Positions 2,936 through 56,237 of a stretch of 64,000 nt of DNA are shown one piece after another. This DNA is from Henckelia pumila (lineage: Eukaryota; Streptophyta; Magnoliopsida; Lamiales; Gesneriaceae): positions 154,395,753-154,459,752 of the forward strand of contig NC_133123.1 in NCBI RefSeq assembly GCF_033568475.1, written 5' to 3'. Under the pieces are notes generated by a model. It was not told where the DNA came from. It was given only the letters and a program-made list of their open reading frames with translations, and made no database searches. Position 1 is the first letter of the stretch. Each line of letters opens with the position of its first letter. A program made the position numbers and the translations under genes.

Positions 2936-2950
2936 TGAAGGGGCAGCAGG

Positions 2951-4612: not shown

Positions 4613-4670
4613 CTTATTCCCTGTAATAAAATAAACAAACCAAGATCAGTTCTTAGTGTATCAAGAATAT

Positions 4671-4683
4671 GGCTCTGATGTCA
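4671..4683 (-). promoter_or_regulatory. Primer-binding site of element A
   Basis: On the minus strand it reads TGACATCAGAGCC, a decayed match to TGGTATCAGAGC, the usual complement of the 3' end of plant initiator Met-tRNA. It sits two bases inside the LTR end, as in element B. Confidence 0.7.
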
Positions 4684-4685
4684 CT

Positions 4686-5494: not shown

Positions 5495-5829
5495 ATATAC
5501 ACATACTTTATACACTAGTGTTGATTATACAAGATGCCGCAAGTAGCTCAAATGATTACGGCAAAACCTTTTTGAGTTCAGATGATCACCTACCTTAACA
5601 TAACCCTAGATATATATAGTCATTATTGTTTATAATAATATATATTAGTTATCACCAAACCTTGATAATATTATGTCATACTATAAACGGATCATATATA
5701 TTATTTTAGGGAATAGTGCATTTACTTAAATTACCAAGTTAAATTATAAATTATTATTTTATTAGCAAAACATTTCTAGTCTCTACATTTATTCCTCACA
5801 ATTACATTATTATTGGAATCATCCATCAC
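5495..5829. other. Putative laccase intron remnant between element A and the last exon
   Basis: AT-rich sequence with no open frame of note. It ends in an acceptor-like CATCACAG just before the laccase coding block. Read with the laccase, it is the 3' end of an intron that element A has entered, or the breakpoint that truncated the gene. Confidence 0.55.
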
Positions 5830-8142: not shown

Positions 8143-8733
8143 GGAAGGATCACAAGTTCACAACTCACAAGTCGATGCATTTCCGGTCCAAATTTCAAAT
8201 TTACATCTCATTTAAAATTACATGAATTAAAATGAATTTTATTATATATAAAAAATTTATTTTAAATTTACTTAGGTTACGTTTGAATCAATGAATTTCA
8301 ATTAATGTACTCAAATATTTTTTTTTTGTTTAGAAAAGGAAGGATCACAAATTCACAACTCACAAGTCGATGCATTTCCGGTCCAAATTTCAAATTTGCA
8401 TCTCATTTAAAATTACATGAATTAAAATGAATTTAATTATATATAACAAATTAATTTTAAATTTACTTAGGTTACGTTTGAATCAATTAATTTCAACTAA
8501 TGTACTCAAATATTTTTTTTTTTTTTTTGTTTAGAAAAGGAAGGATCACAAGTTCACAACTCACAAGTCGATGCATTTCCGGTCCAAATTTCAAATTTGC
8601 ATCTCACTTAAAATTACATGAATTAAAATGAATTTTATTATATATAACAAATTAATTTTAAATTTACTTAGGTTACGTTTGAATCATGAATTTCAATTAA
8701 TGTACTCAAATATTTTTTTTAAGAAAAGTAATT
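8143..8733. repeat. Three tandem copies of a ~195-201 bp unit containing a MITE left end
   Basis: Units start at 8143, 8338 and 8539, each with GGAAGGATCACAA followed by CACAAGTCGATGCATTTCCGG, then ATTACATGAATTAAAATG and GGTTACGTTTGAATCA. Copies differ by a few substitutions and by poly-T length. The terminal inverted repeat GGTTACGTTTG recurs at 8275, 8470 and 8671, so the duplicated unit straddles the left boundary of the neighbouring MITE. Confidence 0.9.
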
Positions 8734-8960: not shown

Positions 8961-9737
8961 TGAAAGAACATGTTGTGCACATGTCTTTTAAATTATTTCC
9001 TTATTGCATTCAATTTCTATATTTATAGTTTTGCTTTTCTTAGAACAAGTGTTAAAATTAGTAATATCAGTTATATCTTGATTCGAAATATTTGATTCTA
9101 ATGATATATTGTTTTCATGCTTTGTAGGTTCTTATTTATGAAAATATATTGAAGATCTATTTATAGGAGTGCTTGAACCGAGAGAGACGACAACAACGAG
9201 ATAGAGAGATCAAGAGAGTGAAACATAGAGAGTAAAATACATAGAGAAAGTACTGCAGAAATTCTAGAGTATTGAAGTTCGATCATTGAAGAATTTCTGA
9301 AGAGATACTACTGCTACGTTGTGTTGCCGAGTAGTGTTGGAAACACTGAAGAACACACGAGTGAAGTGTTGTTCAGAAAGTGTTTTTTTGGTTTTCGTTT
9401 TTCGGTTTAGAACTTCCTATTGATTTATTATTCTAGTTTTTACTAGTTTTTAGAAAGTCGTTTATTTTCTCAATCTGTTGAGAAAAGTAGTTTTTCATAA
9501 AACAATCGCTAGTTGGTTTTTTGTAAACTGGTTTAATTTTCTAGTGATTATTTCGCCATGAGGCATAGTACAAGTACTTAGTACTTGTGCATAAATATCT
9601 GTGTGTTATTTACTTTTATTGTTAGTTAATTATTCTGCTGCATAGTGTTATCGTGAAGTGTTGACAACACTGAAAGATAACACACACTCGAAAAGTTTTC
9701 TGGTATTTCTGTGATTTCATACTGTCCAAACCATACA
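8961..9737 (+). repeat. 5' LTR of element B
   Basis: Starts TGAAAGAACATG and ends CCATACA, matching 29996-30772 along its whole length. A TATA-like TATTTATAG lies at 9159, followed by a purine-rich leader. Palindromes of the family occur at 9333-9347 and 9657-9671. Confidence 0.95.
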
Positions 9738-9738
9738 A

Positions 9739-9752
9739 TTGGCGTCAGAGAC
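9739..9752 (+). promoter_or_regulatory. Primer-binding site of element B
   Basis: TTGGCGTCAGAGAC lies just inside the 5' LTR, a degenerate match to the initiator Met-tRNA complement TGGTATCAGAGC. Confidence 0.7.
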
Positions 9753-9807
9753 ACTTACTTGACGATACTAAGTGTGATTCTGTTTTTGTGTTTGACAGGA
9801 CATCACA

Positions 9808-11404
9808 ATGGAGATACCTTATTCAGGAACTGCTCAACGCCCTCCAATCTTGGATGGATCCAACTATTCTATCTGGAAAGTTAGGATGCGTGTCTACATC
9901 AAATCGATTGATGAAAAGGCATGGCAGCCTGTGTTACAAGGCTGGAATCCACCAAGGAGAACTGATGGAGAAGGAGAAGGAGAAGGAGATTTTCTCCTCA
10001 AACCAGAAACGAAATGGAATGCCGATGAAACTGCTGCTTCGAATATGAACAACAAAGCTCTTAATGCTATATTTACTTCTCTTGATTCTAATATTTTTCA
10101 CTTGTAACTAACTGTATTTGTGCTAAACAGGCTTGGGAAAAACTTCAAATGCACTGTGAAGGATCCGATAGTGTGCGTCGAACCAAAAGAAAGATTCTCA
10201 CTACTCAGTTTGAAAATCTGAAAATGGAAGAAAGTGAGACAATCGATGATTATGAACGACGTTTGAGGAAGATAGAGAATGAGGCAATTGATCTTGGTGA
10301 TGCTATTTCTAACGAACGTTTAGTGAGCAAAGTGTCAAAGATCACTGTCGGAAAGATTTCAAATGAAGATTTGTGCCATTGATGAATCAAAAGACACATC
10401 AATTCTGGGATTGGATGAATTGATGAGTTCACTTCGAACATATGAGTTAAAGATGAATTTTGGAAAAAAAGGACAAAGGTAAGTTTATTGCACTTCAAGT
10501 TTCTAATGACTCATACAATGATTTTGTTGATCTGACACAGGGAGTCAATGAGTCTGACTTAGGAGATGATTCAATCGCCTTTCTTACCAAACAATTTGGT
10601 AACTACTTGAAGAGAATGAGAGATTTTAAGAAACCTGGTCAGAAACCTAAAGTTTTGATGCTCCTACTGTTGGAAAACCATTGAGGATATGCGGACCAGA
10701 ACATAATATCATCCCTTCAAAGAGTCAAAATCACTTTCAGAAAGAAGGAAAAACACTGAATATCTCAAAGAAGTTTGAATCTGTGAAATGTCATGAGTGC
10801 ACAGGCTTCGGTCACTATGCTAATGAGTGCCCAACCAGACTTCGTAAAGGAATGTGTACTTCCCTAAGTGATGATGAAGATGAGGAAGGAACAAAACAAG
10901 GAGAAGAAGAGACTCACTATGCTCTTTCAGTTTTGGTGACGCAGAAGAAACACAGTGCTGTCACAGATGTCACAACACTTGGTCACAACACTGACCAAAA
11001 AGTACTTTGTCTGAATGCATCTGTTTCTGAAGACTCAAATCAGGAAGCTGGTGAAGTAGAACTGTCTTGGGATAATGCTCAGAAGATGTATGAAGAATTG
11101 TATAATGACTGGATATTAAGGAACACGACAAATTCTGCTTTAACAAAGGAGAACAGTGAACTAAAAGCTTCAGTGGCTAAACTTGAAGTTGTTCTGAGCA
11201 AGAAGGATTTAGAACTAGGCAAGGTCAAAGAAGAGCTTGGAAGAGCCAATGCAACTCTCGCAAAGTTTAATTCAAGAAAGACCAAGCTGGATTCAATTTT
11301 TATGATGGGAAAAGATGATAGAGCTGGTCTAGGATTTCATAATAGCAAGTTTGAAGTTGGGGAGTCGTCACAAACTGTTTTTGCCAAAGAGAACAGTAAC
11401 TCTG
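9808..11404 (+). pseudogene. Gag of element B, frameshifted and interrupted by a solo LTR
   Basis: Starts at 9808 (MEIPYSGTAQRPPILDGSNY), the usual copia gag opening, with YSIWKVRMRVYIK. Homology with gag of element A runs through HCEGSDSVRRTK, the zinc knuckle CHECTGFGHYANEC near 10790 and a coiled-coil-like KVKEELGRANATLAKF near 11225. Frame changes are needed near 10100, 10340, 10465 and 10680. At 11404 the frame is cut by the solo LTR; removing that LTR and one CTCTG copy joins it in frame to 13303, where the second knuckle reads CHYY...GHIKPYC with one Cys changed to Tyr. No functional capsid is expected from this copy. Confidence 0.88.
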
Positions 11405-13297
11405 TGAAAGAGTGGGTGCCCGATTAGCCAACTTGTGGCTAAGGGCTTTGATGACTCTATATGTAAACAATCTTTATTTAATATAATTTACACTTTTATC
11501 ATGGCATTTACTTTATCTTTCTTCATATTGTTATATTGTGATATACTATTGTTGTTTAGATGAAGACCTTGAATATACTAGAGTGCATGTAAGATGTGAT
11601 AGTACATGGGGATGACTATCATGAAACACATCTTATAATTACTGTATATTCTAAACAGTTCCTAGTCAATTGAGTCGTCCGCAAATAAGGATAAGGATCG
11701 CTCGAGATTGAGACTAGCATTTGTGATGCCAAGTACCACGTTTAATTGGTAATGGACATGGAGATGTTCAAAGCATGGAAATGGATATTCATATGATGAA
11801 TGATCGAACTACCCTATCCGGACTTTCCAAGTGGTTATCACTTATCGAGTGGATAAAGGCGGCGGTTTTGGTTGTACACCATTAGTCCTTACTACTTGAA
11901 ACATCATTGAGACTCTATATGCTAGTACTGTACTTTGACTCGTTTACCGACTCTATTGGGGTCATCAGGTGTCAGGATTGGGTACAGTTACGACACATAT
12001 AGGATTCGATGCTTTGTTGTCAAGGATTCACCACATACCTGCGAGTGTGGATATCCTATGCGATCTGAGGAGATATTAGTGTGACGAATCTCTGGCCAGA
12101 GTACATGATGTGTTTTAGGTTACTCGGTTTCCTAGTAGCACATGCGATGTCACTATTTGATCTTCAAGATGCATTGCATAGTTATCGAATCTCGAACGAC
12201 TCTCGATGCACCAATGGTTGTTGATTCGATCGAGATATATGGATGAAGGGACCGTACTGTATGCTAACCAAAACCTACTGGTTCTTGCAGGCACTATAAG
12301 TGATACCTAGGGAATCATGGGGCAATGTTGCTAGGCGCTCTTACCATGATTCGATGGGTAAGTCGAAAATTGTTGTTTCGATTCACAAGGAGTTGTGAGC
12401 CCACGGCTAGCTGTATCCCTGAACCATTGAGGGTCACACAAGTAATAGATTACTAAACCCCGTTGAGATAGTTAAATTTAAAGAGTTAAATTTAATGAAA
12501 GAGAAGTTGGACTTCTTAACTAAAGGGAGTGAAATTTTCTAAAATGACATATGGATGGGCATTTTTGGAAATCACTGAATTCGGATTCAAAAAAATTATC
12601 TTGACTTTAAAAGATGCAAAAATGGTTTCTGTGCACATTGGTGAAATCAGTTTATCAATCGGAGTCATGATGAATTTTATATTAATTTCTATAATAACAG
12701 GCTTGGCTTGTTGGGCTTAAGTTATGGATTATGGGCCCTAAGGAGTTAGAGTCCTAATATAATTATAACTTAATCTAGTCTAGAAATTATCTATAAATAT
12801 AGGTGTAGTGTTCGAAAATTGCATGCATTCCATCCTTGAAATTTTCGAAAATCACTTATAATATTCTAAGGGAATTTTCGAAATTCTTTTCTCCTTTTTG
12901 AGATAATTCAGGCTGTGATTTTTGTGAAAAATTACATTCTGAATTGACAGATCAAATCTGTTTATTCTCTTCAATAAATATCTGATTGATTTCTAGTGCA
13001 ATCAATCAGAAGGTTTTAGTTTTTCTGTTCGTGGACCTAATTCCGGAGATTGATCGAGCAAGTCATCGGTTCCCGGGATTTACAAGAAGAGCAAATTAAT
13101 TCTGTTGGAGTCCATAATCAAGCCTTTGCTTGAAGAGGTAAAAATATTAATTGTGTTTTATTTTTACTTGCAACAATTTTAATCGTTAGGATTTGATACC
13201 CACGATATGGAATCGTTCCATATCACAAAACAAAATTTTTAAACTTCCGCTGCTTTGGGTATCACATCCGTTTGATCAGAGAACACGTGTTCCAACA
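11405..13297 (+). mobile_element. Solo LTR (copia-type, 1893 bp) nested in gag of element B
   Basis: Begins TGAAAGAGTGGGTGCCC and ends GTGTTCCAACA. It is flanked by the target duplication CTCTG at 11400-11404 and 13298-13302. Excision restores the gag frame across the junction. A TATAAATA box at 12792-12799 gives plus orientation, with about 1.4 kb of U3 and 0.5 kb of R-U5. No internal domain remains, so LTR-LTR recombination is the simplest origin. The short open frame at 12529-12720 is not coding. Confidence 0.9.
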
Positions 13298-13302
13298 CTC
13301 TG

Positions 13303-14890
13303 CTAGTGTTCCAATTGCAATTCCAAAGGAAAAACCAATTCCATTGAAGGCACAAGCTCCTGTTCAGAGGAAAAAGCAAAGGAAGCGTAGGTTTGTTTGT
13401 CATTACTATCACAAGCAAGGTCACATCAAGCCTTACTGTTTCAAACTCAGGTATGACTATATGTGCTGGAATTCCAGGCAAGAGCTGTCATCAGTGTTGC
13501 CAACACTGAACCAGAACACTGCCAGTAAGAAAAATTTTGAGAAAAAGGTTTGGGTACCAAAAGCTAAATCTAGTTGTAATGTCGTTTATACTTCCTTGAA
13601 AACTAATGTTGCAGGTCATTGGTACTTCGACAGTGGCAGTTCACGCCACATGACAGGATTAAAGAAGTATCTTTCTGACTATGTTGAACAGGATAAAAGA
13701 AAAGTGACATATGGAGGAGGAGCCAATGGAAAGATTGTTGGAAAAGGAACTTTGAATGTAGAAGGACTGCCTAAGCTTCACAATGTTCTACATGTTGAAG
13801 GATTAAATGCTAATCTTATTAGCATTAGTCAACTTTGTGATGATGATCTTTATGTTAAATTTGATAAGAATTTATGTCAAGTATTTGATAAGAGTAATTC
13901 GTGTGTTTTGACAGGGTCTAGATCATCGGACAACTGTTATCAACTTGGAGAGGAACTTGCTTGCAAATTCACCAAGGTTGATAAATTGAATTTATGGCAT
14001 CAAAAGTTGGGACATGCCAACTTCAAAGCATTGAAGAAACTGAGCCAGTATGATGTTATACGTGGGATGCCAAATTTAACTTCTGGAGTTCCATATGTGT
14101 GTGAAGACTGTCAAAAAGGTAAGCAAATTCGTGTGTCACATCCAGTGTTACAACACTGTGGGACAACAAGATGTCTTGAACTCCTACACATGGACTTAAT
14201 AGGACCTATGGAGGTTGAAAGTTGTGGAGGTAAGAGGTATTCATTTGTGTGTGTTGATGAATTTTCAAGGTACTCATGGGTAAGTTTTTTAAGAGAAAAG
14301 TCTGAAACTTTCGATGCCTTCAAAAAATTGATAAAGCAGATACTAATCTGTTTGCTTTGAAGGTTATCAGGATTCGAACTGACCATGGTAAGGAATTTAA
14401 AAACTCATTGTTTGATCAATTCTGTGAAAAGGAAGATATATCACATGAATATTCAGCACCTAAGACACCTCAGCAGAATGGCATTGCCGAAAGGAAAAAC
14501 AGAACCCTCCAAAAGATGGCAAGGGTTATGTTAAGCTCCAAAAATATTGTAAAAAGATTTTGGGCTGAGGCTTTAAATACTGCATGTCACATATCCAATA
14601 GGGTATATTTAAGGAAAGGTTCTACTATGACATCCTATGGAATTCTCATGGGAAAGAGGTCTAACCTTAAATATTTTCATATTTTTGGATGCATATGTTA
14701 TGTTTTAAATGACAGGATGCAGTTGGCTAAGTTTGATTCAAAAAGCGATAAGTGTTTATTTCTGAGATATGCTTTGAATAGTCGAGCTTATCGTGTGTTT
14801 AACTTGAGAACTAGAATTATCATTGAATCTATTTATGTGGTATTTGATGATTATGCTGATCTGAAGGGGAAAACAATTGAAGACAATATT
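13303..14890 (+). pseudogene. Pol of element B, part 1 (protease, integrase)
   Basis: Protease with the active site DSGSS near 13630 (WYFDSGSSRHMTG). GAG-pre-integrase domain with LWHQKLGHANF near 13995 and the CX2C pair VCEDCQKGKQ near 14100. Integrase core has HMDLIGP near 14190, TDHGKEF near 14380 and QNGIAERKNRT near 14475, giving the D-D-E triad. A frame change is needed near 14360. The frame is cut at 14890 by the gypsy element and resumes at 24877 after both nested insertions. Confidence 0.9.
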
Positions 14891-14948
14891 TGTAGTAGCC
14901 CGTACCCTAATTGAGTAATTAAAGGATTAATGCTAATTAATTGAATTG

Positions 14949-15230
14949 GGTATCGGACGGATCGAAAGCTCCGAAGGCACGATCGGAAGCTCCGAACAGG
15001 ATCGGAAGCTCCGATGAGCGATCGGAGGCACCGATGTTATTACGTCAGGCATGACGTGTGGTTGGATCGGAAGCTCCGATCAGGACCGGAAGCTCCGATC
15101 ACCCCTATCCGGAGTCAACTAGTGATATTTTGACACGTGGCAGATCAGGATCTTCGGAAGCTCCGATGGCAGGATCGGACGTTCCGATCGAGGTTCGGAC
15201 GTTCTGATCAAGGATCGGAAGTTTCGATCG
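14949..15230 (+). promoter_or_regulatory. Array of ten odd palindromes in the gypsy LTR U3
   Basis: Variants of ATCGGAAGCTCCGAT occur near 14960, 14981, 15001, 15019, 15065, 15082, 15152, 15174, 15192 and 15212. The six-base arms ATCGGA/TCCGAT are kept while the three-base centre varies (AGC, CGT, and GGC with one arm change). They end just before the TATA box, which suggests an enhancer array. Confidence 0.75.
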
Positions 15231-15235
15231 TTGTC

Positions 15236-15243
15236 TATAAATA
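15236..15243 (+). promoter_or_regulatory. TATA box of the gypsy 5' LTR
   Basis: TATAAATA directly follows the palindrome array; the same box is at 21199-21206 in the 3' LTR. Confidence 0.75.
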
Positions 15244-16235
15244 GAAGGCCGAGACTTCACTTTCATTTGCCAATTCCGAGTTCTCCTTTCCTTTCTAGTC
15301 CTTTTGGAGCTGTTCTAGTCTTCTTAGGCTTGGTCCGGAGGTCGGCGAGGCGTTCGGTAGTCGTAGCGGAGTTGTGCCCAAGTTCTGGAGGCATCGACAT
15401 CAAAGGGCTAACGACGGAGGAAGGTATAGCTTTTGCTTCCTATAAATATTTAGGAGTATGCAATAGCTTAGTTAAGGCTTTTAGAGCACTTTGATGATAG
15501 TAGTATCATTTGGCAGTGTAGAGCAGACTATAGGCGTGGACCTAGAGTTGGTAGAGCTTGCGCTATTTTGAGGTACTAAAGTACTGTTCGAGATATCCTG
15601 ACTGAGTATGCATGTATTATGTGACTGCATGATTTATATGTCATGATATTATGCTGCATTCATTTGCATCTTGTTGTATCTCTTTCGAGATGTCTGTTAG
15701 TAGGGTTGTACCATATCCTGTTAGTGGATGGACTTCCATCAATTTGGGTCCGGCATATCCACGGTTATCTCGGTATGGGAGCCACCTCCTGAAGCGACGG
15801 CACAGCGTGCTACATACTAGGGCCCGGTCTGTCTCTGTTATCTGATCCTTGACCTCGAGTCTATAGGGAGTTCACTTTGCATGCATGTATACTCATACTC
15901 TCGCACTGAGCGTTTTATGCTCACGTCTCGTACTCTGTATTTTCTGGACACCCTATTCCATGGGGCAGGTTTGCGATTGGACGAGGAGGGTGGATCCAGG
16001 AGGGGCTAGTCGGCGGTTGGCCGGCTGGAGCTTCGCTTAGGTTTTATTACTGTTGTTTGGGTTTATATAGCTATTCGATTTGGTTGTATATTATTGGATA
16101 AATTACAGATTCCTTTTCTTGGGATTGTATAATGTTTTTGGTTTCCGCAGTTTTATTTTGATATCTGTTTTATTAAGTTAATTGCATGCCTAAGTTCTGT
16201 TTAGTAGGTGATCCGGGTAAGGGTCACTACATTTA

Positions 16236-16247
16236 TGGTATCAGAGC
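16236..16247 (+). promoter_or_regulatory. Primer-binding site of the gypsy element
   Basis: TGGTATCAGAGC, a perfect initiator Met-tRNA primer site, lies four bases after the 5' LTR. Confidence 0.92.
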
Positions 16248-16296
16248 ATGCAAAAGATTTCTTGGGATTTAGTCTCATCTTGAGGTATTTTTGTAG

Positions 16297-19200
16297 ATGT
16301 CAAATCGTGACGACCAGAGTTCTCATGGCAGTGTTGGTGGGCGTTGGGGTGATGCCGACCGGGAACCTTGTCGAGAACGGCGTCATCGTCACCATGACGA
16401 CGAGCGTTTCACTGTGCGTCGATTCTTAGCTATGGGTCCTAAGCCCTTAGTTGGAGGTGAGTCTCCGGAGGATGCGGAGAACTGGTTAGACCGCATGGAG
16501 ACGACTTTTCAGACTTTCCAATGCACCGATGAGCAGAAGGTGGAGACCCTGGGCTATCTTCTGGATGGGCGTGCGCGCAGGTGGTGGAGGTTTACTTCTG
16601 CACCTTTTGTTGCGGCGAGAGGAGTGGCCACCTGGGCCGAGTTCCGCACAGCTTTCCAAAAGCGGTATTTTCCTCCTGCACTCCGTCAGTCGAAGGCGGG
16701 CGAGCTACTGAGTCTGCGATAGGGAGCCATGTCTATTGATGAGTATCAGCAGAGGTTCTTTGATCTGCTATCCTATTGCCCCGAGATTGCCGATAGCTCA
16801 GAGATGAAGTATAATCTGTTCCTTCAGGGCCTTAACCCTGAGATCCATGACCGTGTGGCGGTTGGAGACGACATGTCCTACGAGGGTTTGGTGAGCCGTT
16901 GTCACCAGGAGGAGGACAGCATTCGGCGGAACAAGTCTTTCTCTCAGTCGAGACCTGCTAGTTCTTTGGGTCCCCGTGCCCAAACTTTCAAGAAGTCTGG
17001 ATCTTCTTCTTCCTCTGGTTCTGGGGGTGTTGTTCGTTACGATAAGAAAGACAAGTGTGATCACTGTGGGAAGAACCATCCATCCGACAAGTGTCGTAGA
17101 GCTTCTGGAGCTTGTTTCCATTGTGGAGAGACTGGTCATATCCGGAGGGATTGTCCACTGTCTGGGGGAGGCGGTTCTGGTTCTGGTTCTGGTTCAGGAT
17201 CGGGTTCTCAGGCCACCGTACAGCAGAGGTCGCAGGGACAGTCTGCTGGGAGTTCTCATTTGAGGCCACGAGCTTCTGGCCAGGTGTTTGCCCTGAGACA
17301 TGATCAGGATGTGGAGGAGAATGAGAAAGTCATCGCAGGTACATTTCTGCTTTATGGTATACCTGCTCTTGTACTTATTGACACTGGTGCATCTCATTCC
17401 TTCATTTCTGCACGTTTTGTTAAGAGGCATAAGTTACCATGCATTGCACTAGACGTAGTGATGTCTGTTTCTACTCCGACGGGCCAATCTGCTTTGGCTA
17501 AGCGTCTAGTGATGGGTTGCCCTTTAGAGTTCGAAGGGAACATTCTGTTAGCAAATCTCATGGTCCTGGCGATGGACGACTTTGATTGCATTCTGGGAAT
17601 AGATATGTTAACTACCTATCGAGCTTCAGTGGACTGCTATCAGAGATTAGTACGCTTTCATCCAGAAGGGAGTAAGAGTTGGTTTTTCTATGGTGAGGGA
17701 GCGCGACCCCCGATGCCTTTGGTATCAGCTTTGAGAGCCTGTCGAGCTCTAGAGTCTGGCGGGGAAGGCTACCTTATCTATGCAGTTGATTTGTCCGCTG
17801 AGAGTATTGGGATAGAGAGCATTCCTGTTGTGGATGAATTTCCAGATGTATTTCCTGATGAGATTCCGGGTTTTCCTCCTGCTAGGGAAGTCGAGTTTGG
17901 CATAGAGTTGATGCCGGGTACTTCGCCTATTTCTAGAGCACCGTATCGTCTGGCTCCGTCAGAGATGCGTGAGTTGAAGAATCAGCTACAGGATCTTTTA
18001 GACAAGGGGTACATTCGTCCTAGTGTGTCTCCTTGGGGAGCTCCTGTTATCTTCGTGAAGAAGAAGGATGGGTCGATGCGGCTGTGCATTGACTATCGGC
18101 AGCTGAATCGAGTCACTGTAAAGAACAAGTATCCGTTGCCTCGTATTGATGACTTGTTTGACCAGCTGCAGGGCACGTCAGTTTACTCCAAGATTGACTT
18201 GAGATCTGGGTATCATCAGTTGAGAGTCCGTGATCAGGACGTAGCCAAGACTGCATTCCGTACTCGCTATGGGCATTACGAGTTTCTAGTGATGCCATTT
18301 GGTTTGACTAATGCGCCGGCTATATTCATGGATTTGATGAACCGTGTCTTCAGCGAGTATTTGGACAAGTTTGTCGTGGTCTTAATTGACGACATCTTGG
18401 TGTATTCGCGTAATACGGAAGAGCATGTTTCTCACTTGTGGTTGGTACTGCAGACTCTTCGAAATGAGCAGTTGTACGCTAAGCTGAGTAAGTGTGAGTT
18501 CTGGATGGATAGAGTGGTCTTTCTTGGCCATATCATATCCAGTGAGGGGATTTCTGTTGATCCAAGCAAGATTGAAGCAGTACTTAATTGGTCGCGTCCG
18601 ACGACAGTTGCTGAGATCCGTAGTTTTCTGGGTCTAGCAGGGTATTATCGTCGCTTCATTCTGAACTTCTCTCAGTTAGCTCGACCGTTGACGCAGCTTA
18701 CCCGCAAGGGTGTGGATTTTGAGTGGTCCTCCGAGTGTGAGGAGAATTTCCGTGAGCTTCGACGGCGGTTGACTTCTGCGCCGGTGTTGGCATTACCGTC
18801 AGGATCTGGAGGGTATGTAGTTTACACGGATGCTTCTCTTCAGGGGTTAGGTTGTGTCCTAACTCAGAATGGGCATGTGATCGCATACGCTTCTAGACAG
18901 TTGAAGCTTCACGAGGACAACTACCCAGTCCATGACTTGGAGTTAGCAGCCATTGTGTTCGCTTTGAAGATCTGGCGTCATTATCTGTATGGCGAGAAAT
19001 TTGAGATCTTCACCGACCATAAGAGTCTCAAGTATTTGTTCACTCAGGCGGAGTTGAACATGAGGCAGAGACGTTGGATGGACTTGCTTAAGGACTATGA
19101 TTGCGAGATTAAGTACCATCCGGGAGCTGTTAATCTCACCGCTGATGCTTTGAGTCGCAAGGTGCGACTATCCGCACTTCAGACTTGTTCGATGTCTAGT

Positions 19201-20718: not shown

Positions 20719-20838
20719 TTTCATTCTTTAAAGTTGTATTCAGTTGCAAACTTTGTAACGTTCGATTTGAATAAAGAATGTTTCTGATTTCTGTATTTGC
20801 ATTCGTTACTTAAGATCTGTTTTCGAGGACGAAATATC

Positions 20839-20853
20839 TTAAGTGGGGGAGAA
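20839..20853 (+). promoter_or_regulatory. Polypurine tract of the gypsy element
   Basis: TTAAGTGGGGGAGAA directly precedes the 3' LTR, the plus-strand priming site for reverse transcription. Confidence 0.85.
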
Positions 20854-22193
20854 TGTAGTAGCCCGTACCCTAATTGAGTAATTAAAGGATTAATGCTAAT
20901 TAATTGAATTGGGTATCGGACGGATCGGAAGCTCCGAAGGCACGATCGAAAGCTCCGAACAGGATCGGAATCTCCGATGAGCGATCGGAGGCACCGATGT
21001 TATTACGTCAGGCATGACGTGTGGTTTGATCGGAAGCTCCGATCAGGACCGGAAGCTCCGATCACCCCTATCCGGAGTCAACTAGTGATATTTTGACACG
21101 TGGCAGATCAGGATCTTCGGAAGCTCCGATGGCAGGATCGGACGTTCCGATCGAGGTTCGGACGTTCCGATCAAGGATCGGAAGTTCCGATCGTTGTCTA
21201 TAAATAGAAGGTCGAGACTTCACTTTCATTTGCCAATTCCGAGTTCTCCTTTCCTTTCTAGTCCTTTTGGAGCTGTTCTAGTCTTCTTAGGCTTGGTCCG
21301 GAGGTCGGCGAGGCGTTCGGTAGTCGTAGCGGAGTTGTGCCCAAGTTCTGGAGGCATCGACATCAAAGGGCTAACGACGGACGAAGGTATAGCTTTTGCT
21401 TCCTATAAATATTTAGGAGTATGCAATAGCTTAGTTAAGGCTTTTAGAGCACTTTGATGATAGTAGTATCATTTGGCAGTGTAGAGCAGACTATAGGCGT
21501 GGACCTAGAGTTGGTAGAGCTTGCGCTGTTTTGAGGTACGAAAGTACTGTTCGAGATATCCTGACTGAGTATGCATGTATTATGTGACTGCATGATTTAT
21601 ATGCCATGATATTATGCTGCATTCATTTGCATCTTGCTGTATCTCTTTCGAGATGTTTGTTAGTAGGGTTGTACCCTATCCTGTTAGTGGATGGACTTCC
21701 ATCGATTTGGGTCCGGCGTATCCACGTTATCTCGGTATGGGAGCCACCTCCTGAAGCGACGGCACAGCGTGCTACATACCAGGGCCCGGTCTGTCTCTGT
21801 TATCTGATCCTTGACCTCGAGTCTATAGGGAGTTCACTTTGCATGCATGTATACTCATACTCTCGCACTGAGCGTTTTATGCTCACGTCTCGTACTCTGT
21901 ATTTTCTGGACACCCTATTCCATAGGGCAGGTTTGCGATTGGACGAGGAGGGTGGATCCAGGAGGGGCTAGTCGGCGGTTGGCCGGCTGGAGCTTCGCTT
22001 AGGTTTTATTACTGTTGTTTGGGTTTATACAGCTATTCGATTTGGTTGTATATTATTGGATAAATTACAGATTCCTTTTCTTGGGATTGTATAATGTTTT
22101 TGGTTTCCGCAGTTTTATTCTGATATCTGTTTTATTAAGTTAATTGCATGCCTAAGTTCTGTTTAGTAGGTGATCCGGGTAAGGGTCACTACA
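20854..22193 (+). repeat. 3' LTR of the gypsy element
   Basis: TGTAGTAGCCCG to GGGTCACTACA, followed by ATATT. It carries the same U3 palindrome array and TATA box as the 5' LTR, with scattered substitutions and one single-base length difference. Confidence 0.95.
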
Positions 22194-22203
22194 ATATTGA
22201 TGA

Positions 22204-24871
22204 TGTAACACCCGGTATTTTAATACGTAAATTCGCATGCATAATTAGGGATTTTATTTATTTAGAATTTTAGATTTATGAGTTAAATAATTATGTGAAA
22301 TTATTGGTGCATGTTTTAAGTTATTTTTAAGCATTTAACCCATAATTAATGAATTTTCATGATTTATGGAAATTTAATTATTTTATCGCATAGACGGGAC
22401 CGTGGACGGACGAGATGACAACTTTCTATCCAATTTATTTCATGAGCATTTTTAGAGCCCAAAAATATTATTTTGAGTTTTATTTCCTCAAAATTATTAG
22501 TATTTAATTTTATATGATTTTAGGAGTCCATTTTTATTCAAAATAAGCCAAAATAATGACTTTTTATTATCTTTAAAATTCCCTTAATTATTTATTTCGG
22601 GATTTTTAAATTAGTTATCAGATTTTAATTTTTAGTTAGAGCTTTTAAGTTATATATTTCATAATTAAAAATCCATATTAATATTTTATTATCCTAAAAA
22701 CCTATTTTTAATTAAAAACACCCTAATTCTACCCCAAACCCTCACGCCTCCAAGCTCTCAGCCGACACCTCCTTGCATCTTCATCTTCTTCATCGTCTAG
22801 CAATCTCCAAGGCTCCATAGCCACGATTTTGAAGCTTTCGAGTTGAGTCATCGTCGTCCCGTCGTCCTGGATTCGTTCTACACGCTCCTATCTCTTCTTT
22901 TAACGGTGCAAGGCATGTTTCTTTCTCTTATTTTTACACCATATCAGTGATTATACGTGTGAGTGTGTAGACATCAGATTTTTCAATGAGACTTTCAAGA
23001 GAGGATCATTTTTTTACGATTATTTGCACATGGTTCGTTGGTTTCTCAACATACTCACGTTTTCTCTTGTTATGGGGGTGCATGGCTGCTGGTCAGAGGT
23101 TGCAGGGGGTTCCTTAGGGTCCCTAGGCTGGTGTGGTTTGGCCGGTTTGGGGCTGGAAAGGGGCTGAGGCACGCTGGTTCAGTTTTGGTCCAAGGGGGGT
23201 GCAGTTTAGGGTTCAGTGGAATAGGGCTTCGGGTTTGAGGTAGGGACCGTGGCTCGGGCTGAGCCATGGTGGGTTAGGACTGCCCAGATGTGGGCTACGT
23301 CTTGGCGGTGGCGCTCTGGCCATGGGTGGCCGGAGCTGGCCGGCAGCAGGCCATGAAGGCCTGCTGCTCACGGCCGAGGGGAAGTCGGGTAAGGGGGGAT
23401 CGGGTTAGAGGTTTTGGGGGATCGGGTCGGGTTGTTGGGTCCGGGTCGGGTTCAATAATTCATGGGTCAAGTCTAGTGGGTCCGAGTCCGGGTTAAGTGA
23501 GTCGGGCTCGGGTATTATTATTTTTAAGTATTAAGTATAATTAAGTGTTAAATGGGCTCAATTAAATCTCAAAAATTTAATTGGGTTACATTTAATTAAT
23601 TGGGTGGAATTTAATTATTATTGGGCTTAAATAAATTTAATTAAGTTAGTCCAATAATTTTTATGGGCTTGGGGGCCCATGGAAGTTATTGGGCCAGTCT
23701 TTGGGCTTTTGGGCCCATTGGGCCGGAATAGAATGTTATTGGGCCATGATTGTTCTAATGGGCTTTAAGTAATTATTTGGGCTCAGAATAATTATTGTTG
23801 GGCTTAAGTATGTTAATGGGCCAGTCTTAGTGTTAATGGGCCAAAATTTTAAGAAAAAGGGCTTGAGTGTTAGGGCCAGCAGTTCAGTACAACCTATGAG
23901 AAATTGCATGTGTCCTGAATATATATTTAATTATTTTTATGCATGGAAGTTATTTTTAATATTTATATGTTAGTATGAAATTAAATTAAATATATATGAA
24001 GGACACACATTTTATTTAAGTACATGCATTCATGAAATAATTTTTATGCATGATTTAATGTTTGAGGTTGAGCAAAAGAAAACAATTTTATGTTGGAAGT
24101 TGAAGTAGTGTGACAATTTAAGGGGGATTCGTCCCCATATGTGAACTATTGAAGGGCAGTTTACTGCCAATTTAAGAGGTGATTCGTCACCGCCACGTAC
24201 GTTGGTTTACCACGCTGATCAGTATTTAATGTATGTATGGTTACACTATGGATACGACCTTTTGATGTTAGAAAATACTTTGTTCAACAATGTTTATGTA
24301 TTATTATGATATTCAAGTTTAATTTAAGTTTATGTTATGTTCATGATATTTTTAAGCATGCTCATTCATGTATATATTATGTATTAGTATTAAAGTGATT
24401 TAAATTATTTTAAACCCTTGTTATGTTAGCATGTTGGGCCTATAGGCTCACTACACTGATATGGTGCAGGTGAGTACGTAGAGGAGGATGTAGTACCCAC
24501 CGGCGGCGAGGACCTATGAGCGGACATGCAGTAACCCCGTGACCGTTGTCTGAGTCTATATGCATGTTTTGAATATTTTATCGTGTTATACATTTTTATT
24601 TATTTTCAGTGGTGGATATTATTACTCGTCTTATTTAAATATTTTCAGTGCATGCAAATTTTATTTATTTTGCTTATGTCAGTATTTTATTTAAACGTTA
24701 GACTCAGATATTTAATTTATTAAAGGTTGCATTTTTATTTAAGTTATTTATTTTTAAATCTATTTATTCTGTGCATATATGTATGTGCATGTATGTACAT
24801 ATTATTATTTAGTAAGTAATAAAAAAAAATTCCGTATATTTATTTATATTTAGAGAGTTAGGGTCGTTTCA
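22204..24871 (+). mobile_element. Solo LTR (gypsy-type, 2668 bp) nested in pol of element B
   Basis: Starts TGTAACACCCGG, ends GGGTCGTTTCA, and is flanked by the target duplication GATGA at 22199-22203 and 24872-24876. The TGTAACACCC start is typical of plant gypsy LTRs. It has no coding domain; open frames such as 23038-23238 are GC-rich noise. It includes a dense run of TGGGCC/TGGGCT boxes at 23550-23880 and three small hairpins at 24123-24191. Its duplication abuts that of the gypsy element directly. Confidence 0.9.
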
Positions 24872-24876
24872 GATGA

Positions 24877-26740
24877 TCTGCTAGATACTGTCTCTTCACA
24901 TACTGATTCCAGTGTTGTCAATAGTGTTGTCCCTCCTAAAAAATCACCCAGCACAACACTGAGTCCAACACTGAATATGAATGAACAGAGTACAGAAGAA
25001 CATGATGATTTTGAAGATGAAATACGAGATGCTGGACATGATGTACCTAGCAAGATTCAGAAAAACCATCCTACTTCACAAATCATAGGAGATGCACAAG
25101 GAAGGATGCAGACCCGAAGAAAGGAAAAAGTTGATTATCGAAGGATGAGTGGGTTAGTGTGCATGACTTCCGCATACTCTCAGGTAAGACATTTTTGCTT
25201 TGTGTCTAGTATTGAACCAAAAAATGTTGGTGAGGCTTTAAAAGACGAGTTTTGGGTCAATGCTATGCATGATGAACTTGAACAATTTGTTATGAATGAT
25301 GTGTGGATCTTAGTTTCTCCACCTGATCATAGTAATATCATTGGAACAAATTGGATTTTCAAGAACAAAACTGATGATCAGGAAATATTGTGAGGAATAA
25401 GGCGAGGTTGGTAGCTCAAGGGTATACACAAGTTGAGGGGGTGGACTTTGATGAAACCTTCGCTCCTGTAGCCCGAATAGAATCTATTAGATTATTGTTG
25501 GCTATTGCATGTAACATGAAAATGAAAATTTTTCAAATGGATGTAAAAAGCGCATTTTTGAATGGAATTTTGAGTGAAGAAGTTTATGTAAGACAGCCTA
25601 AGGGATTCGAAGATCCACATCATCTTCATCATGTTTATAAATTGAAGAAGGCCTTATATGGATTGAAACAAGCACCTCGTGCTTGGTATGGAAGGCTCAC
25701 GGAGTATTTGCTTGACATTGGATTCAAAAGAGGTGAGGTAGATAAAATAATTTTTGTTCAAAAAGTACAAGGTAACATTCTTATCTGTCAAATCTATGTT
25801 GATGACATAATTTTCTGTGCTTTATCTCAAAAACTTGTAAATGATTTTGTTGAAAGCATGACTGCTACCTTTGAAATGAGCATGGTAGGTGAGTTGAATT
25901 ACTTTCTAGGATTACAAGTGAAACAAATGAGTGATTGAATCTTTTTGTGTCAAAGCAAATATGCTAAGAATTTGGTGAAAATGTTTTGTACTGATCATGT
26001 TAAACATATGAAAACACCAATGGAAACTAATGAAAAACTGTGCAAAGACAGTGTTGCTGACAGTGTTGACAACACTTTGTACAGAAGCATAATTGGAAGT
26101 CTGCTGTATCTAAGTGCAAGTCGACCTGATATTATGTTCAGTGTGTTTTTGTGTGCCCGATATCAATCTGATCCTAAAGTCACACATATGAAAGCTGTAA
26201 AACAAATTTTGAAGTATGTTGCAGGCACTTTAGACTTAGGGTTATGGTACACTGAAGAAACCAATACTAATTTGGTAGGCTATAGTGATGCTGATTGGGC
26301 AGGAGATGTTGATGAGAGGAAAAGCACCACGGGTGGTTGTTTTTATTTGGGTAACAACTTGGTTTCATGGTATAGTAGGAAGCAGAACTGTGTGTTACTT
26401 TCCACTGCTGAATCCGAATATGTGGCAGCGGGAAGTTGTTGTTCTCAATTAATTTGGATGAATCAAATGCTACAAAACTATGGTCTTAAAAGTGAAACAC
26501 CAATTGTGTACTGTGATAACTCAAGTGCTATAGATATATCAAAAAACCCAGTACAACACTCTCAAACTAAACATATTGACATAAGACATCACTTCATTTG
26601 AGATTTGGTTGAAGAGGACATGATCCAAATGGAGTTTGTTGGGACCAATAACCAACTGGCCGTTTTTACAAAAGCATTAAACTTTGAGAGATTCTCCAGT
26701 CTTAGGAAATCTCTCAACATGTGTTCTTTATAAGCATTCA
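24877..26740 (+). pseudogene. Pol of element B, part 2 (integrase tail, reverse transcriptase, RNase H)
   Basis: Continues the copia frame after the two nested insertions. Integrase C-terminal linker, then RT with [39 protein letters not shown] and the intact catalytic YVDDIIF near 25800. RNase H has YSDADWAGD near 26285, KSTTGG, STAESEY near 26405 and a terminal HIDIRHHFI. Lesions: a frameshift near 25385, a TGA after KQMSD at 25936 where relatives have Gly, and a TGA after HHFI at 26600, probably CGA to TGA. RT and RNase H motifs are otherwise well kept, so loss of function is fairly recent. Confidence 0.9.
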
Positions 26741-27765
26741 CGATTGCTGTCCTTAAGTATTGCCAACACTGACGGACAACACCAAATATGCATGAGCATT
26801 TTTAGGACTTTAGGCATACTGCATATTCATATTGTTCTATGTTTTTCACTGTTTGATAATACTGACTGACACTTTGTAGTTCTTCTGTCAAAGTTATTTT
26901 CAGATCACACTTGCCATTAAAATATGCTTTAAACCACAAAGTAGTTGAAGGATGTTCGTGTATTCCATGATCTTGTCCCATGTGAAAAGTGGTTTTAAAA
27001 AAAAAATTGAAAAGCATGGTTTGATAAAATTTCAGTGACCAATGTCTTGAAAGTCAAACTAAAATTGGAAGAAAATTGGAAAAAGCTACCTAAGAGAGTC
27101 CAATGAAGACCGTTCTTTTAGTGTACAGGCTACCACTTCTGAATCAAAATAAAAATAAGAAACACATGGCTCTGGAAGTGTGACAAATTCAAAAGTATTT
27201 TGAAGACTACAGTGTTGTTGGGAAGTGTTGCCAATACTGGTGCTTAACACGTGCTGCACATACTTTGCATGCATCATTTTTGATCTAATATCATTACATT
27301 CTATTTTAGACATAAATTAGGTCATGCATTTTGCATTTATAGTGATCATATCGTGCTCAGGGTTAAAAGTTCAAAGACGAACAAAAATTGGAAAAATTGC
27401 CCAATTTGCTGAAAATTGAATTGATTGAGATTGAATATGTTTCAGTGGCGTTAAAACTCGATGTGGAGTTATTTATTTTTGGGGAATATTGATATATTCT
27501 TAAGTGAGAGTTTCAGGGTATCCTTAATTAATCAAATTTAATTTCCTTAATTAGAGAGATTTTTTTTACCCGTTGAAGTTTTGTTACCGTTAGGGGGAGA
27601 TTCTAGTCTGATATGATAGATAGGGGCTTTTGATTTTTTTACCGTTTGAACCCCTTATCCCTATAAATTTCTAAGCACTGTAGAAATTGATCTTATCGTC
27701 TTCAACCTTTTTCTAACTCTCTCCGCAAAAATTCTCTGAAACCCTTACTTTCTAAATTGTTTATA

Positions 27766-29628
27766 ATGGCAGGCAAAGCTTTCGATTCGCATGATATACG
27801 ATCGGAGATGGTTTATCAAGAAGAAGACAAGCCTTCGGAGCTATCTTCTGATCCTATTCTCTCGATTGTACATGTTGCCATTCAACCTACATCGTTGGCA
27901 GAAATTGCTCCAAGAGAACCCGGGAACGAAATCGACCTTGAGAATCCTCCTGATTTCTCAGTGTTGAATCGTGTGTTCCCAACACAGCCAATAGCAAGAA
28001 GGTCAAAGCGCCAAGCGGGCTTCAACCCCGATTTCACTACCAATAAGAGATTTTATGGTAAGGGGGAGACTTCACGTCCTATTTTGGATGATCCAGATTT
28101 CTCATCTGGAGATGATTCTGCGGATCAAAATTTTGAGGTGGTTGCTAGGACAAAAACCTCTGGTGCTGAAAAGACCAAATCAAATAAAGGAGTTTCATCT
28201 AGTGGTGATGATTCTTCTGATGAAATTTCTACTGATGTGGTTTCTACTGAGAAAGAGCCATCTAGTACTGCTGTTGTTGATGATACCACAAAGACAACTA
28301 CAGAGGCTCCAACTTCTACTGATGAGGAAATTTCACTGGCCTCTTTCATGGCGAATATTCAGAAAACCAAGGCTAAACCAGTTGCACCATCACAAGTTCC
28401 ATCAGATGGTGATGAACCAGACTCTGAAATGATGCAAGAGTTTGAGAATAACCGGCCCCAGGAGTCTGATAGTTCATCTTCTTCGATTTCTGAGGAAGAA
28501 GATTATGAGGATACTGCTTCTGATGGTTCTGGAAGTTCTGAGGAACAAGTTGCTGATGACAGTGTTGCCAATACTGATAAGAACACTGCTGCTGAATCTG
28601 ACTCTGATATTGATCCTGCTAAGGCATACAATATTCAGTTTTATTCAAAGGAATCTGCTGATGAATGGGAAGCTCTGTCTGGAAAAGACTGTTGGGAAGA
28701 AAGAAATATTGATGAAGTGTCCTTCAAAAAGCAAAACTTGGTGACTTTCTTGAAACAGCAGAATTTATTTTCTACTATCACCACTGCCGGATCATTTTCA
28801 AGAAGAGCTGTGTTAGAATTTTACTGCAATCTGAACATTAAGACTGGAGATGAAGAATCATTTAAGTTTGGAAGAGTGTACATCCGAGGAAAGGTGTATG
28901 ATTTTACTCCTGTTTTGATCAATGAGCACTACAATACTCCTGATATCGATGATGATGTAGTTACTGAGGATATTGATCAAGTCACTAAAGTGATCACTGG
29001 AGGAATGGTTCAAAAATTTCCACTAAAGCTTACTTCTTTCTTTTCTGTGCTTCACAAAATTGCGATCAGGAATTGGACACCATCTACCAATACAACAGTG
29101 GTAACTAAGCCACAAGCCCTTGCGCTGTTTTCCATTGGTACTCAAGCTCCTTTGGACTTTGGTAATTTGGTTTTTGAAAATATTATGACCTTTCGAGAAG
29201 GTGTTTGGAAAGCAACTAAGTTTCCATTTCCTTCATTGATCTATGGTATGCTGGAATCTCAAGGCTTCACGAAAGAGGATGATGAAGAATTGATTGGAGG
29301 AGATGAGCTTATCAAGATCGCACCTAGTTTGCTGATAGGAAATAGGATGATTGATCTACCATGGACTGGTGCTGTACCCAGTGTCGCCAACACTGAGTTT
29401 GTTCAACCTATGACTATTCACAACACTGTTGTAATTATGTTGAATTCTACTGCAATTCGTGCTCAAATGGCTCATGCTGAATTGAAAATTGCACAAGCCA
29501 AAGCTGATCTGGAGTACTATGAAGCCTTAATGGCTGAGTACAGGACTAAACTTGGACTACCAAGGCCCTTTGGACAAAAAGGGGGAGTAGAGTCAAGTGC
29601 TGAGCAAGCTGAAGATGCAGATGATTAG
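27766..29628 (+). CDS. Env-like/ORF3 protein of Sirevirus element B, open over 620 codons
   Basis: Lies between pol and the polypurine tracts of element B, the position of the env-like ORF of Sireviruses. ATG at 27766 (MAGKAFDSHD). Residues 1-280 are acidic and Ser/Thr-rich, probably disordered, with a poly-Ser/Glu patch. Residues about 285-540 form a globular part (AYNIQFYSKES, VLEFYCNLNIKTGD, VYIRGKVYDFTPVLINEHY) that resembles the domain annotated in plants as putative plant transposon protein or envelope-like protein; this is recalled similarity, not a search. A charged helix near the end (ELKIAQAKADLEYYEALMAEY) could form a coiled coil. I see no signal peptide or membrane segment, so a true envelope role is doubtful. 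The frame is intact although gag and pol of the same element are broken. Three family palindromes lie within it (27960, 28561, 29380). Confidence 0.82.
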   Translation: MAGKAFDSHDIRSEMVYQEEDKPSELSSDPILSIVHVAIQPTSLAEIAPREPGNEIDLENPPDFSVLNRVFPTQPIARRSKRQAGFNPDFTTNKRFYGKGETSRPILDDPDFSSGDDSADQNFEVVARTKTSGAEKTKSNKGVSSSGDDSSDEISTDVVSTEKEPSSTAVVDDTTKTTTEAPTSTDEEISLASFMANIQKTKAKPVAPSQVPSDGDEPDSEMMQEFENNRPQESDSSSSSISEEEDYEDTASDGSGSSEEQVADDSVANTDKNTAAESDSDIDPAKAYNIQFYSKESADEWEALSGKDCWEERNIDEVSFKKQNLVTFLKQQNLFSTITTAGSFSRRAVLEFYCNLNIKTGDEESFKFGRVYIRGKVYDFTPVLINEHYNTPDIDDDVVTEDIDQVTKVITGGMVQKFPLKLTSFFSVLHKIAIRNWTPSTNTTVVTKPQALALFSIGTQAPLDFGNLVFENIMTFREGVWKATKFPFPSLIYGMLESQGFTKEDDEELIGGDELIKIAPSLLIGNRMIDLPWTGAVPSVANTEFVQPMTIHNTVVIMLNSTAIRAQMAHAELKIAQAKADLEYYEALMAEYRTKLGLPRPFGQKGGVESSAEQAEDADD

Positions 29629-29840
29629 ATGTAGTTGATCATAATTGGTTTTAGGATTTTTTATCTTATTTTGCTCTGAGTTAGTAATATTTTTCTGAGT
29701 TGATTAGGTTGTGCTCCTTATTATTGTGCTCCTTATTACTCTCTGATATGATATTAAACTATTTGCTACTCTGATCTAGTAAGTGTTGAGAGTTGGTGTG
29801 GCCAACACGACCATACAACACTATGTTCTCAGATGATTAA

Positions 29841-29995
29841 ATTCAGGGGGAGCTTTAGTTGCATAAGATAGGGGGAATTATTTGCACTTATGTGTGTTTT
29901 GTCCAAAAAGGCAAAAAGGGAGAGTTTAAAAGAACGTCTTATGCAACTAAATGTACTTATGTGTGTTTTGTCTAGGAAGGCAAAAAGGGGGAGTT
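29841..29995 (+). promoter_or_regulatory. Multiple polypurine tracts before the 3' LTR of element B
   Basis: Four G-rich purine runs: TTCAGGGGGAGC near 29842, GATAGGGGGAA near 29867, GGCAAAAAGGGAGAG at 29910 and GGCAAAAAGGGGGAG at 29979. The last abuts the LTR. The last two sit in a duplicated block that also repeats GTGTGTTTTGTC and AAAGAAC. Multiple tracts are a reported trait of Sireviruses, as I recall. Confidence 0.8.
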
Positions 29996-30772
29996 TGAAA
30001 GAACATGTTGTGCACATGTCTTTTAAATTATTTCCTTATTGCATTCAATTTCTATATTTATAGTTTTGCCTTTCTTAGAACAAGTGTTAAAATTGGTAAT
30101 ATCAGTTATATCTTGATTCGAAATATTTGATTCTGATGATATATTGTTTCCATGCTTTGTAGGTTCTTATTTATGAAAATATATTGAAGATCTATTTATA
30201 GGAGTGCTTGGACCGAGAGAGACGACAACAATGAGATAGAGAGATCAAGAGAGTGAAACATAGAGAGCAAAATACATAGAGAAAGTACTGTAGAAATTCT
30301 AGAGTATTGAAGTTCGATCATTGAAGAATTTCTGAAGAGATACTACTGCTACGTTGTGTTGCCGAGTAGTGTTGGAAACACTGAAGAACACACGAGTAAA
30401 GTGTTGTTCAGAAAGTGTTTCTTTGGTTTTCGTTTTTCGGTTTAGAACTTTCTATTGATTTATTATTCTAGTTTTTACTAGTTTTTAGGAAGCCGTTTAT
30501 TTTTTCAATCTGTTGAGAAAAGTAGTTTTTCATAAAACAATCGCTAGTTGGTTTTTTGTAAACTGATTTAATTTTCTAGTGATTATTTCGTCATGAGGCA
30601 TAGTACAAGTACTTAGTACTTGTGCATAAATATCTGTGTGTTATTTACTTTTACTGTTAGTTAATTATTCTGCTGCATAGTGTTATCGTGAAGTGTTAAC
30701 AACACTGAAAGATAACACACACTCGAAAAGTTTTCTGGTATTTCTGTGATTTCATACTGTCCAAACCTTACA
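29996..30772 (+). repeat. 3' LTR of element B
   Basis: TGAAAGAACATG to CCTTACA, followed by AACCT at 30773-30777, the copy of the 5' target duplication. The palindrome equivalent to 9657 is at 30692-30706 with one arm base changed. Confidence 0.95.

Positions 30773-56200: not shown

Positions 56201-56232
<32 letters not shown>
56201..56232. repeat. (TA)n microsatellite
   Basis: Sixteen TA units directly abutting the broken left edge of the 5' LTR of element C. Confidence 0.95.
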
Positions 56233-56234: not shown

Positions 56235-56237
56235 TAA

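Follow-up and report, generated by a model that had tools for sequence, protein, structure and literature searches.

Why should a short palindrome recur through the coding sequence of a plant retrotransposon, as well as through its terminal repeats and spacers, and what might read it? The question is raised by a stretch of 64,000 nucleotides of Henckelia pumila (NCBI RefSeq assembly GCF_033568475.1, contig NC_133123.1, positions 154,395,753 to 154,459,752; the whole stretch is hereafter the window), in which a copia-type retrotransposon of the Sirevirus group, element B (8961-30772), carries copies of AGTGTTG-N-CAACACT or close variants. The original prediction offered two models: an RNA hairpin recognised by Gag, and a dimeric DNA site comparable to those of the VANC proteins of VANDAL transposons. 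The evidence favours the DNA site. Judging from sequence, we consider it on balance probable that the palindromes are the cores of arrays on duplex DNA for a DNA-binding factor encoded by the element itself, probably the product of ORF3, an extra open reading frame (ORF) with a PF20167 domain.

The claim that the palindrome is scattered through the long terminal repeats (LTRs), coding regions and spacers of element B stands, the motif or a recognisable variant being found at all 14 cited places. Across the whole window, and with up to three mismatches allowed, it has 20 matches against 2.8 expected, a number that none of 100 shuffles equalled. Exact copies of AGTGTTGNCAACACT number three in element B (9657, 13493 and 26062), the others having one to three mismatches, and the copy at 14144 has an even centre (AGTGTTACAACACT). 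The extra half-sites reported beside the palindromes are real (62 in the window against 27.4 expected, reached in none of 100 shuffles), and the true unit is a composite array of four half-sites, GTGTTG-N6/7-GTGTTG-N-CAACAC-N6/7-CAACAC, in which three or four are usually good.

This grammar emerges from other copies in the host, whose genome comprises 884.7 Mb in 133 contigs. It contains 29 exact occurrences of TGTGTTGNCAACACA, 1096 of AGTGTTGNCAACACT and 1746 of GGTGTTGNCAACACC; AGTGTTGNCAACACT and GGTGTTGNCAACACC read backwards, our control in place of random background regions, occur 0 times each. At equal base frequencies about three of each would be expected (our own arithmetic). Twenty 10-kb stretches fetched around places among 50 listed genome matches all hold a match to the LTR or proteins of element B, and their 399 exact half-sites gave a spacing spectrum (from related copies, so that the counts are not independent). 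Among 101 same-strand pairs no more than 60 bp apart, 80 lie at 12 bp (39) or 13 bp (41); among 166 convergent pairs, a spacing of 7 bp is found in 62 and one of 18-20 bp in 65, with smaller clusters at 30-33 and 42 bp; divergent pairs within 60 bp number 0. Nineteen other hexamers of the same composition gave no convergent 7-bp pair and at most five same-strand 12/13-bp pairs each. From these fixed spacings the unit is therefore F1-12/13-F2-7-R2-12/13-R1 (F forward, R reverse half-site), 37-39 bp long; of 38 arrays examined, eight have a centre of 6 instead of 7. These 38 arrays, taken from one copy each of the loci L019, L006 and L020, were also scored for completeness (a half-site being good at 5/6 or better): all four half-sites are good in nine, three in 25 and two in four, and where three are good the absent one is F1 in 12 arrays, R1 in 10, F2 in two and R2 in one. 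Across 131 dyads, outer half-sites occur only at the 12/13 spacing, on both sides in 40, as F1 only in 47, as R1 only in 30 and on neither side in 14, left and right not being associated. In a scan without exclusion of two-letter hexamers, no inverted hexamer ranked above GTGTTG in either L006, where it came first alone, or L019, where it tied with TTTTTT.

Within the window, 20 arrays exceed the threshold, 14 in element B and six in fragment A, a second Sirevirus of a different (A-type) lineage that lies on the reverse strand at 1-4800 (upper end approximate) and runs off the window; 12 Markov copies of the window gave 0 arrays nine times and one array three times. Most of those in element B lie outside its LTRs. 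Two are in the 5' LTR (9321-9358 and 9645-9683), one is in gag (10955-10991; cited at 10953-10993, it is an array whose second half-site, F2, is degenerate), one is in the protease region (13482-13519) and one, with an even centre, in the integrase (IN) region (14133-14169). The next site, in the linker between IN and reverse transcriptase (RT) at 24912-24971, is split, two forward half-sites (24912/24924) being followed by two reverse ones (24954/24966), and falls below the threshold because its halves are 30 bp apart instead of the usual 7. Further arrays follow on the RNase H (RH) side (26051-26087), in the spacer before ORF3 (26744-26782 and 27212-27250), in ORF3 (27961-27997, 28550-28586 and 29369-29406), between ORF3 and the 3' LTR (29783-29821) and in the 3' LTR (30356-30393 and 30680-30718); the place cited at 27960 is an outer half-site, the core itself being at 27972. 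Missing from the earlier list were the 3' LTR copy at 30368 and the whole of inverted fragment A, whose arrays lie on the RH side (227-263, homologous to 26051-26087, its palindrome at 238-252 matching the homologous place of 26062-26076 in B), in the IN-RT linker (1362-1398), in pol (2136-2172), in the protease region (2787-2824), in gag, with an even centre (3423-3459), and upstream of gag (4722-4759). The nested insertions of element B are free of arrays above the threshold, as had been stated of the motif in general, but one loose dyad with two mismatches does occur in the nested gypsy element, at 18784.

Sites in gag, protease/IN, RH and ORF3 might simply reflect protein sequence. The earlier argument to the contrary, from two reading frames, needs one correction: SVLPTL is encoded near the protease (13482-13519), but SVDNT (26051-26087), placed "in RT", belongs to an ORF after RT (25945-26601). 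That protein sequence is not the whole explanation is borne out by codon-preserving shuffles of nine coding pieces, which never reached the observed half-site count (21 against 7.2 expected; maximum of 2000 shuffles 16), while six dyads were found against 2.0 expected (p 0.002; maximum of 2000 shuffles also 6). Protein constraint alone was rejected on the half-site count, even though only some single-piece tests are significant: for dyads that of ORF3, for half-sites those of ORF3, RH and the A-type IN-RT piece. Both grounds on which the original prediction had said it could fail thus came out in its favour: the motif is present in other copies of the family, and no shuffled sequence had as many half-sites as the real one.

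The positions of the arrays largely correspond between A-type and B-type copies, within coding regions as well as outside them. L006 (A-type) has 12 and L019 (B-type) 13, and from the gag array onward successive gaps are 635, 651, 790, 1135, 693 and 461 bp in the former and 597, 651, 797, 1127, 697 and 463 bp in the latter; later gaps agree less (634, 801, 837, 439 and 863 against 749, 588, 843, 431, 447 and 324), and those of fragment A are 1300, 635, 652, 774 and 1135. Six Markov copies of each of six sequences contained 0 arrays, save one copy with 1. In local alignments of L006 with L019, identity is 87.7% in half-sites (n=154), 55.1% in array spacers (n=107) and 73.8% elsewhere (n=4835), half-sites differing from spacers at p 4e-9 and from the rest at p 5e-5, and the same pattern recurs with L017 or L020 in place of L019. 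An RT tree of 14 pieces places WA, L006, L025, L028 and L016 together (support 0.64) and apart from the B-type loci, with L020, which has A flanks, branching outside both groups; the RT matches in L024 and L027 belong to copia elements of other kinds. Shared positions are what an old repeat of no function, inherited by descent or spread via gene conversion, would also leave. Half-sites that are conserved when the spacers between them are not, a count beyond codon-preserving shuffles, and a flanking base that differs in one direction at dispersed sites nevertheless make that explanation barely credible.

The flanking difference concerns the base before the half-site. In A-type sequences (L006, WA and L016; n=79) it is G in 67 cases, A in nine and another base in three; in five B-type copies chosen from 19 other sequences (WB, L017, L019, L020 and L013; n=195) it is A in 147, G in 18 and another base in 30, and all four half-sites of the arrays share in the difference. 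Most loci were fetched through a core with one flank, and the window's own pair is therefore the cleanest test: fragment A has 18 G, 1 A and 1 C, element B 34 A, 3 G, 6 T and 3 C (G vs. A, p 1.1e-10). L006 and L016, found through the A..T core, are still G-rich (34 G vs. 5 A and 15 G vs. 3 A). Of 24 flanks aligned between L006 and L019, 11 are identical, and the changes from B to A comprise five A->G and four T->C with 0 in reverse. Drift in base composition was rejected as a cause, since substitutions outside the arrays of the same pair are balanced (A->G 186, G->A 159, T->C 139, C->T 134) and cannot explain nine against 0. Half-sites that start with A instead of G are found in 19/79 A-type cases and in 11/395 B-type cases (all other loci). 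A concerted difference at scattered sites suggests a single recogniser with changed specificity, and because both lineages share one genome, with different half-site variants in one host, the simplest reading is that the recogniser would be element-encoded. Plant retrotransposon LTRs often contain sites for host transcription factors, and the arrays could be such sites, gathered by the element as enhancers; CAACA is moreover what we take to be the AP2 core of RAV1. With flanking bases that differ at nearly all sites between two lineages in the same host, and with most arrays outside the LTRs, a host factor is nonetheless very improbable. One further locus, L022, has four arrays with mixed flanks (C 5, A 5, G 3, T 2) and is possibly decayed or a further lineage.

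Is the recognised form DNA or RNA? Dyad symmetry and the distribution of arrays along the transcript would both suit hairpins with AGUGU stems and a UGNCA loop, acting as dispersed packaging signals in genomic RNA and bound by Gag. In local folds of ~130 nt, 14 of 25 cores pair with a probability of at least 0.6, and all 25 minimum-free-energy z-scores are negative (mean -0.73); ten of the cores, however, pair at less than 0.2, and no z-score falls below -2. Across 57 site classes no covariation was found at the six half-site positions, only the flank covarying (p 0.0004), through a symmetric change that preserves the outer pair and in this respect speaks for a stem. The 12/13-bp direct repeats and the lone outer half-sites, on the other hand, play no part in a hairpin, the B-type gag array is without F2 and thus without one half of the stem that a hairpin needs, and in B-type loci transitions are as frequent in forward half-sites (35) as in reverse ones (33). 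Nor do odd and even centres single out RNA, as had been argued, since a tolerance of one base is seen at every spacing (6/7 and 12/13). Because half-site use is strand-symmetric and stem covariation absent, these sequence patterns favour recognition of duplex DNA, and we regard the hairpin as unlikely.

The recogniser would most likely be the ORF3 product, with Gag as the alternative. ORF3 of element B (27757-29628, forward strand, 623 aa) matches PF20167 above the Pfam cut-off (E 6e-19). The usual label of this ORF is a retroviral envelope, yet a simple hydropathy scan found no transmembrane segment in B's ORF3, in which the highest 19-residue Kyte-Doolittle mean is 1.25 and no stretch resembles a span; for L006's ORF, as far as it is open, the corresponding value is 1.15. 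ORF3 of B carries long acidic stretches and an RRSKR motif, and RRSKRQ or a one-residue variant is present in six of seven homologues scanned, P0005 being the exception; a low-confidence model (pLDDT 36) has a long C-terminal helix. A-type and B-type ORF3 share 42% identity over the open part of L006's ORF, and homologues occur in Primulina eburnea, Castilleja foliolosa and Vicia villosa. Among homologues, the peptide encoded by the first ORF3 array keeps its aligned position (SVANTDKNT in B, at 28550-28586; SVDNTSVNT in P0002, SVANSQDNT in P0003, DVADTEDNT in P0001 and DVVNTDDNI in P0004), except in P0005; VPSVANT is encoded by the array at 29369-29406. Peptide shuffles of nine ORF3 homologues taken singly found the core peptide significant in P0001 only (p 0.008), and a longer footprint pattern was present in three ORF3 proteins and one pol protein (P0019) out of 129, the last probably by chance. 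SV.NT before YR occurred in 0 of the 70 pol homologues with a readable RNase H stretch (of the 129 proteins), and the RH array is thus not general to such elements.

Arrays of another kind accompany PF20167 elsewhere in the same genome. A Pfam search of the genome yielded 5990 candidates, of which 150 were scored and every one of these passed the cut-off; eight of the best matches, taken as loci, are copies of one gypsy-type group, which we take to be Athila-type; one of the eight shows a gypsy-like integrase end. AGCGCT is the top or joint top repeated hexamer in all eight. Each locus has 10-18 copies of it, most of them clustered 5' of the PF20167 ORF, and the steps between them are 8 bp (35 times), 14 bp (13) and 22 bp (12). 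Loci of the main group have 4-10 GCGC-N4-GCGC pairs (8-bp step) each, against a Markov maximum of 1, and two loci of another gypsy-type group have five each, in which the spacer is GATA/GTTA as opposed to TCCA; the array takes the form AGCGCTCCAGCGCT in one group and GCGCTATCGCGC in the other (L029-L038 throughout). Nothing like these GCGC arrays was found in the nested gypsy element or in five slices of the window, by a scan that excludes two-letter hexamers and is blind to GTGTTG. It is tempting to propose that PF20167 proteins, annotated as "envelope-like" or "putative transposon" in both copia and gypsy elements, form a family of self-recognition DNA-binding proteins, each lineage coevolving with its own palindromic array to counter silencing or activate its copies, as a retrotransposon counterpart of VANC. 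On this proposal, which we hold only tentatively and think somewhat doubtful, the Sireviruses here would have built their sites into the coding sequence, at fixed places that number about a dozen.

Taken mechanistically, a sequence-specific protein of the retrotransposon would recognise arrays on double-stranded DNA. About three half-sites might be required, perhaps through a pair of interleaved dimers, each spanning half-sites separated by 19-20 bp, in sites that resemble cooperative operators, and the element would thereby mark its own DNA along its length. The likeliest outcome would be activation or, in the manner of VANC, anti-silencing of the element's chromatin; anti-silencing alone is a possibility that we would put forward with some reserve. 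A self-encoded binder (Gag, IN or ORF3) could instead act on linear cDNA, in compaction, nuclear import or protection from self-integration, and not on chromatin. Lineage-specific sites along the full length of the element, even in its coding DNA, agree with such a role, and Gag has diverged between A-type and B-type about as much as ORF3 (A_gag 48-50%, gagC 50%, ORF3 44%). Related Sirevirus motifs near promoters and before the extra ORF are better explained by regulation, and we consider the cDNA role improbable.

The self-encoded DNA-binding factor that we prefer has partial precedents. TnpA of En/Spm is transposon-encoded and is described as a protein that binds repeats arranged both directly and inversely and that counters methylation; compared from general knowledge alone, it differs in belonging to a DNA transposon and in the subterminal position of its sites. 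As far as the available portions of the following papers go, Sirevirus repeated motifs are family-specific palindromes present in many copies, in the LTRs and mostly upstream of the env-like gene where there is one (Bousios 2010, PMC2829016), which is also the placement of the palindrome here. Their core is CGG-CCG, except in Tnd-1, and they occupy the LTRs and the linker, only two elements having a few where the env gene begins (PMC2829016); here, by contrast, the core is GTGTTG-N-CAACAC (without CGG-CCG, as in the Tnd-1 motif), outer half-sites are ordered, and copies extend across gag, pol and ORF3. VANC proteins, of the DUF1985/DUF287 type, recognise YAGTATTAY arrays in noncoding DNA and one orientation (PMC5735166, PMC10398659), and the likeness lies in short repeated motifs inside the element, in motif and protein that differ between related families and in a proposed self-recognition; element B, however, is an LTR retrotransposon whose ORF3 matches only PF20167, not DUF1985/DUF287. 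Retand elements combine short tandem repeat arrays between pol and the 3' LTR with extra ORFs predicted to bind DNA (PMC11963269), but these are gypsy elements with antisense ORFs and a TRP28 domain, and the available text describes no half-site grammar. The extra ORF of sunflower Athila has PF20167, the domain of ORF3, with a nuclear localisation signal, and is predicted to be nuclear (PMC11728184), the portion available reporting no cognate DNA site. In sunflower SIRE elements, CG methylation is reported by a 2026 study to be dramatically reduced over the central part between the LTRs (PMC12844716), a drop that would fit element-wide anti-silencing and that we treat as a lead only.

Several points weigh against a self-encoded factor on duplex DNA. 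VANC motifs are noncoding and in one orientation, whereas those here are palindromic and largely coding; array counts were made over related copies and are not independent; most loci entered the flank comparison through a flank-specific core; and the 14 of 25 cores that pair readily are what a hairpin would predict. The link of PF20167 with arrays comprises three groups in one genome, elements without PF20167 having been checked in this window only. Two of seven ORF3 homologues (P0003 and P0129) do have a more hydrophobic stretch (1.78 and 1.75), and the PF20167 domain model is poor (pLDDT 54) and matches no solved fold (best PDB match E 3.2), so that DNA binding is without structural support.

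Our searches of open-licence literature returned no recognised description of such arrays in coding DNA or of a PF20167 binding site, and to that extent four things are new: the grammar of four half-sites, its presence throughout coding DNA, the concerted difference between lineages and the parallel arrays of other PF20167 elements. In the parts of the literature available, what the extra ORF does in Sireviruses and Athila-type elements is called unknown or debatable; the arrays give it a concrete candidate job, DNA binding, and two co-resident lineages with different half-sites offer a natural test of specificity. If the proposal is true, LTR retrotransposons, like DNA transposons, have sequence-specific self-recognition, and its sites can be maintained within protein-coding DNA.

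The anatomy of element B bears on its assignment to the Sireviruses. Its LTRs (8961-9737 and 29996-30772, forward strand; 97.6% identical, two arrays each) are flanked by the target-site repeat AACCT, and its coding content comprises a gag piece, in which the CCHC match does not reach the Pfam cut-off, protease/IN pieces, RVT_2 and then ORF3, the copia gene order with the optional extra ORF after pol. It is interrupted by insertions, among them the gypsy element with LTRs that start at 14891 and 20854. The polypurine tract octamer typical of Sireviruses, AGGGGGAG, lies at 29986-29993, followed by TT, not AT, before the 3' LTR at 29996; the sequence 3' of the 5' LTR, ATTGGCGTCAGAGACAC, has only TCAGAG in common with the Sirevirus primer binding site TATCAGAGC, of which the published conservation is not absolute. 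Fragment A is 75-77% identical to element B in pol and matches Pfam gag and RVT_2. An Rfam scan of 8961-30772 gave no match, and comparison with viral_contigs no relative. Directly 5' of B's 5' LTR are three tandem copies of a ~195-bp unit (8140-8727). Elsewhere in the window, a 378-aa ORF at 5813-6949 may correspond to the C-terminal part of a laccase/multicopper oxidase, a ~150-bp direct repeat (93% alike) occurs at 56228-56378 and 61900-62048, and 63028-63649 is a cluster of diverged local repeats.

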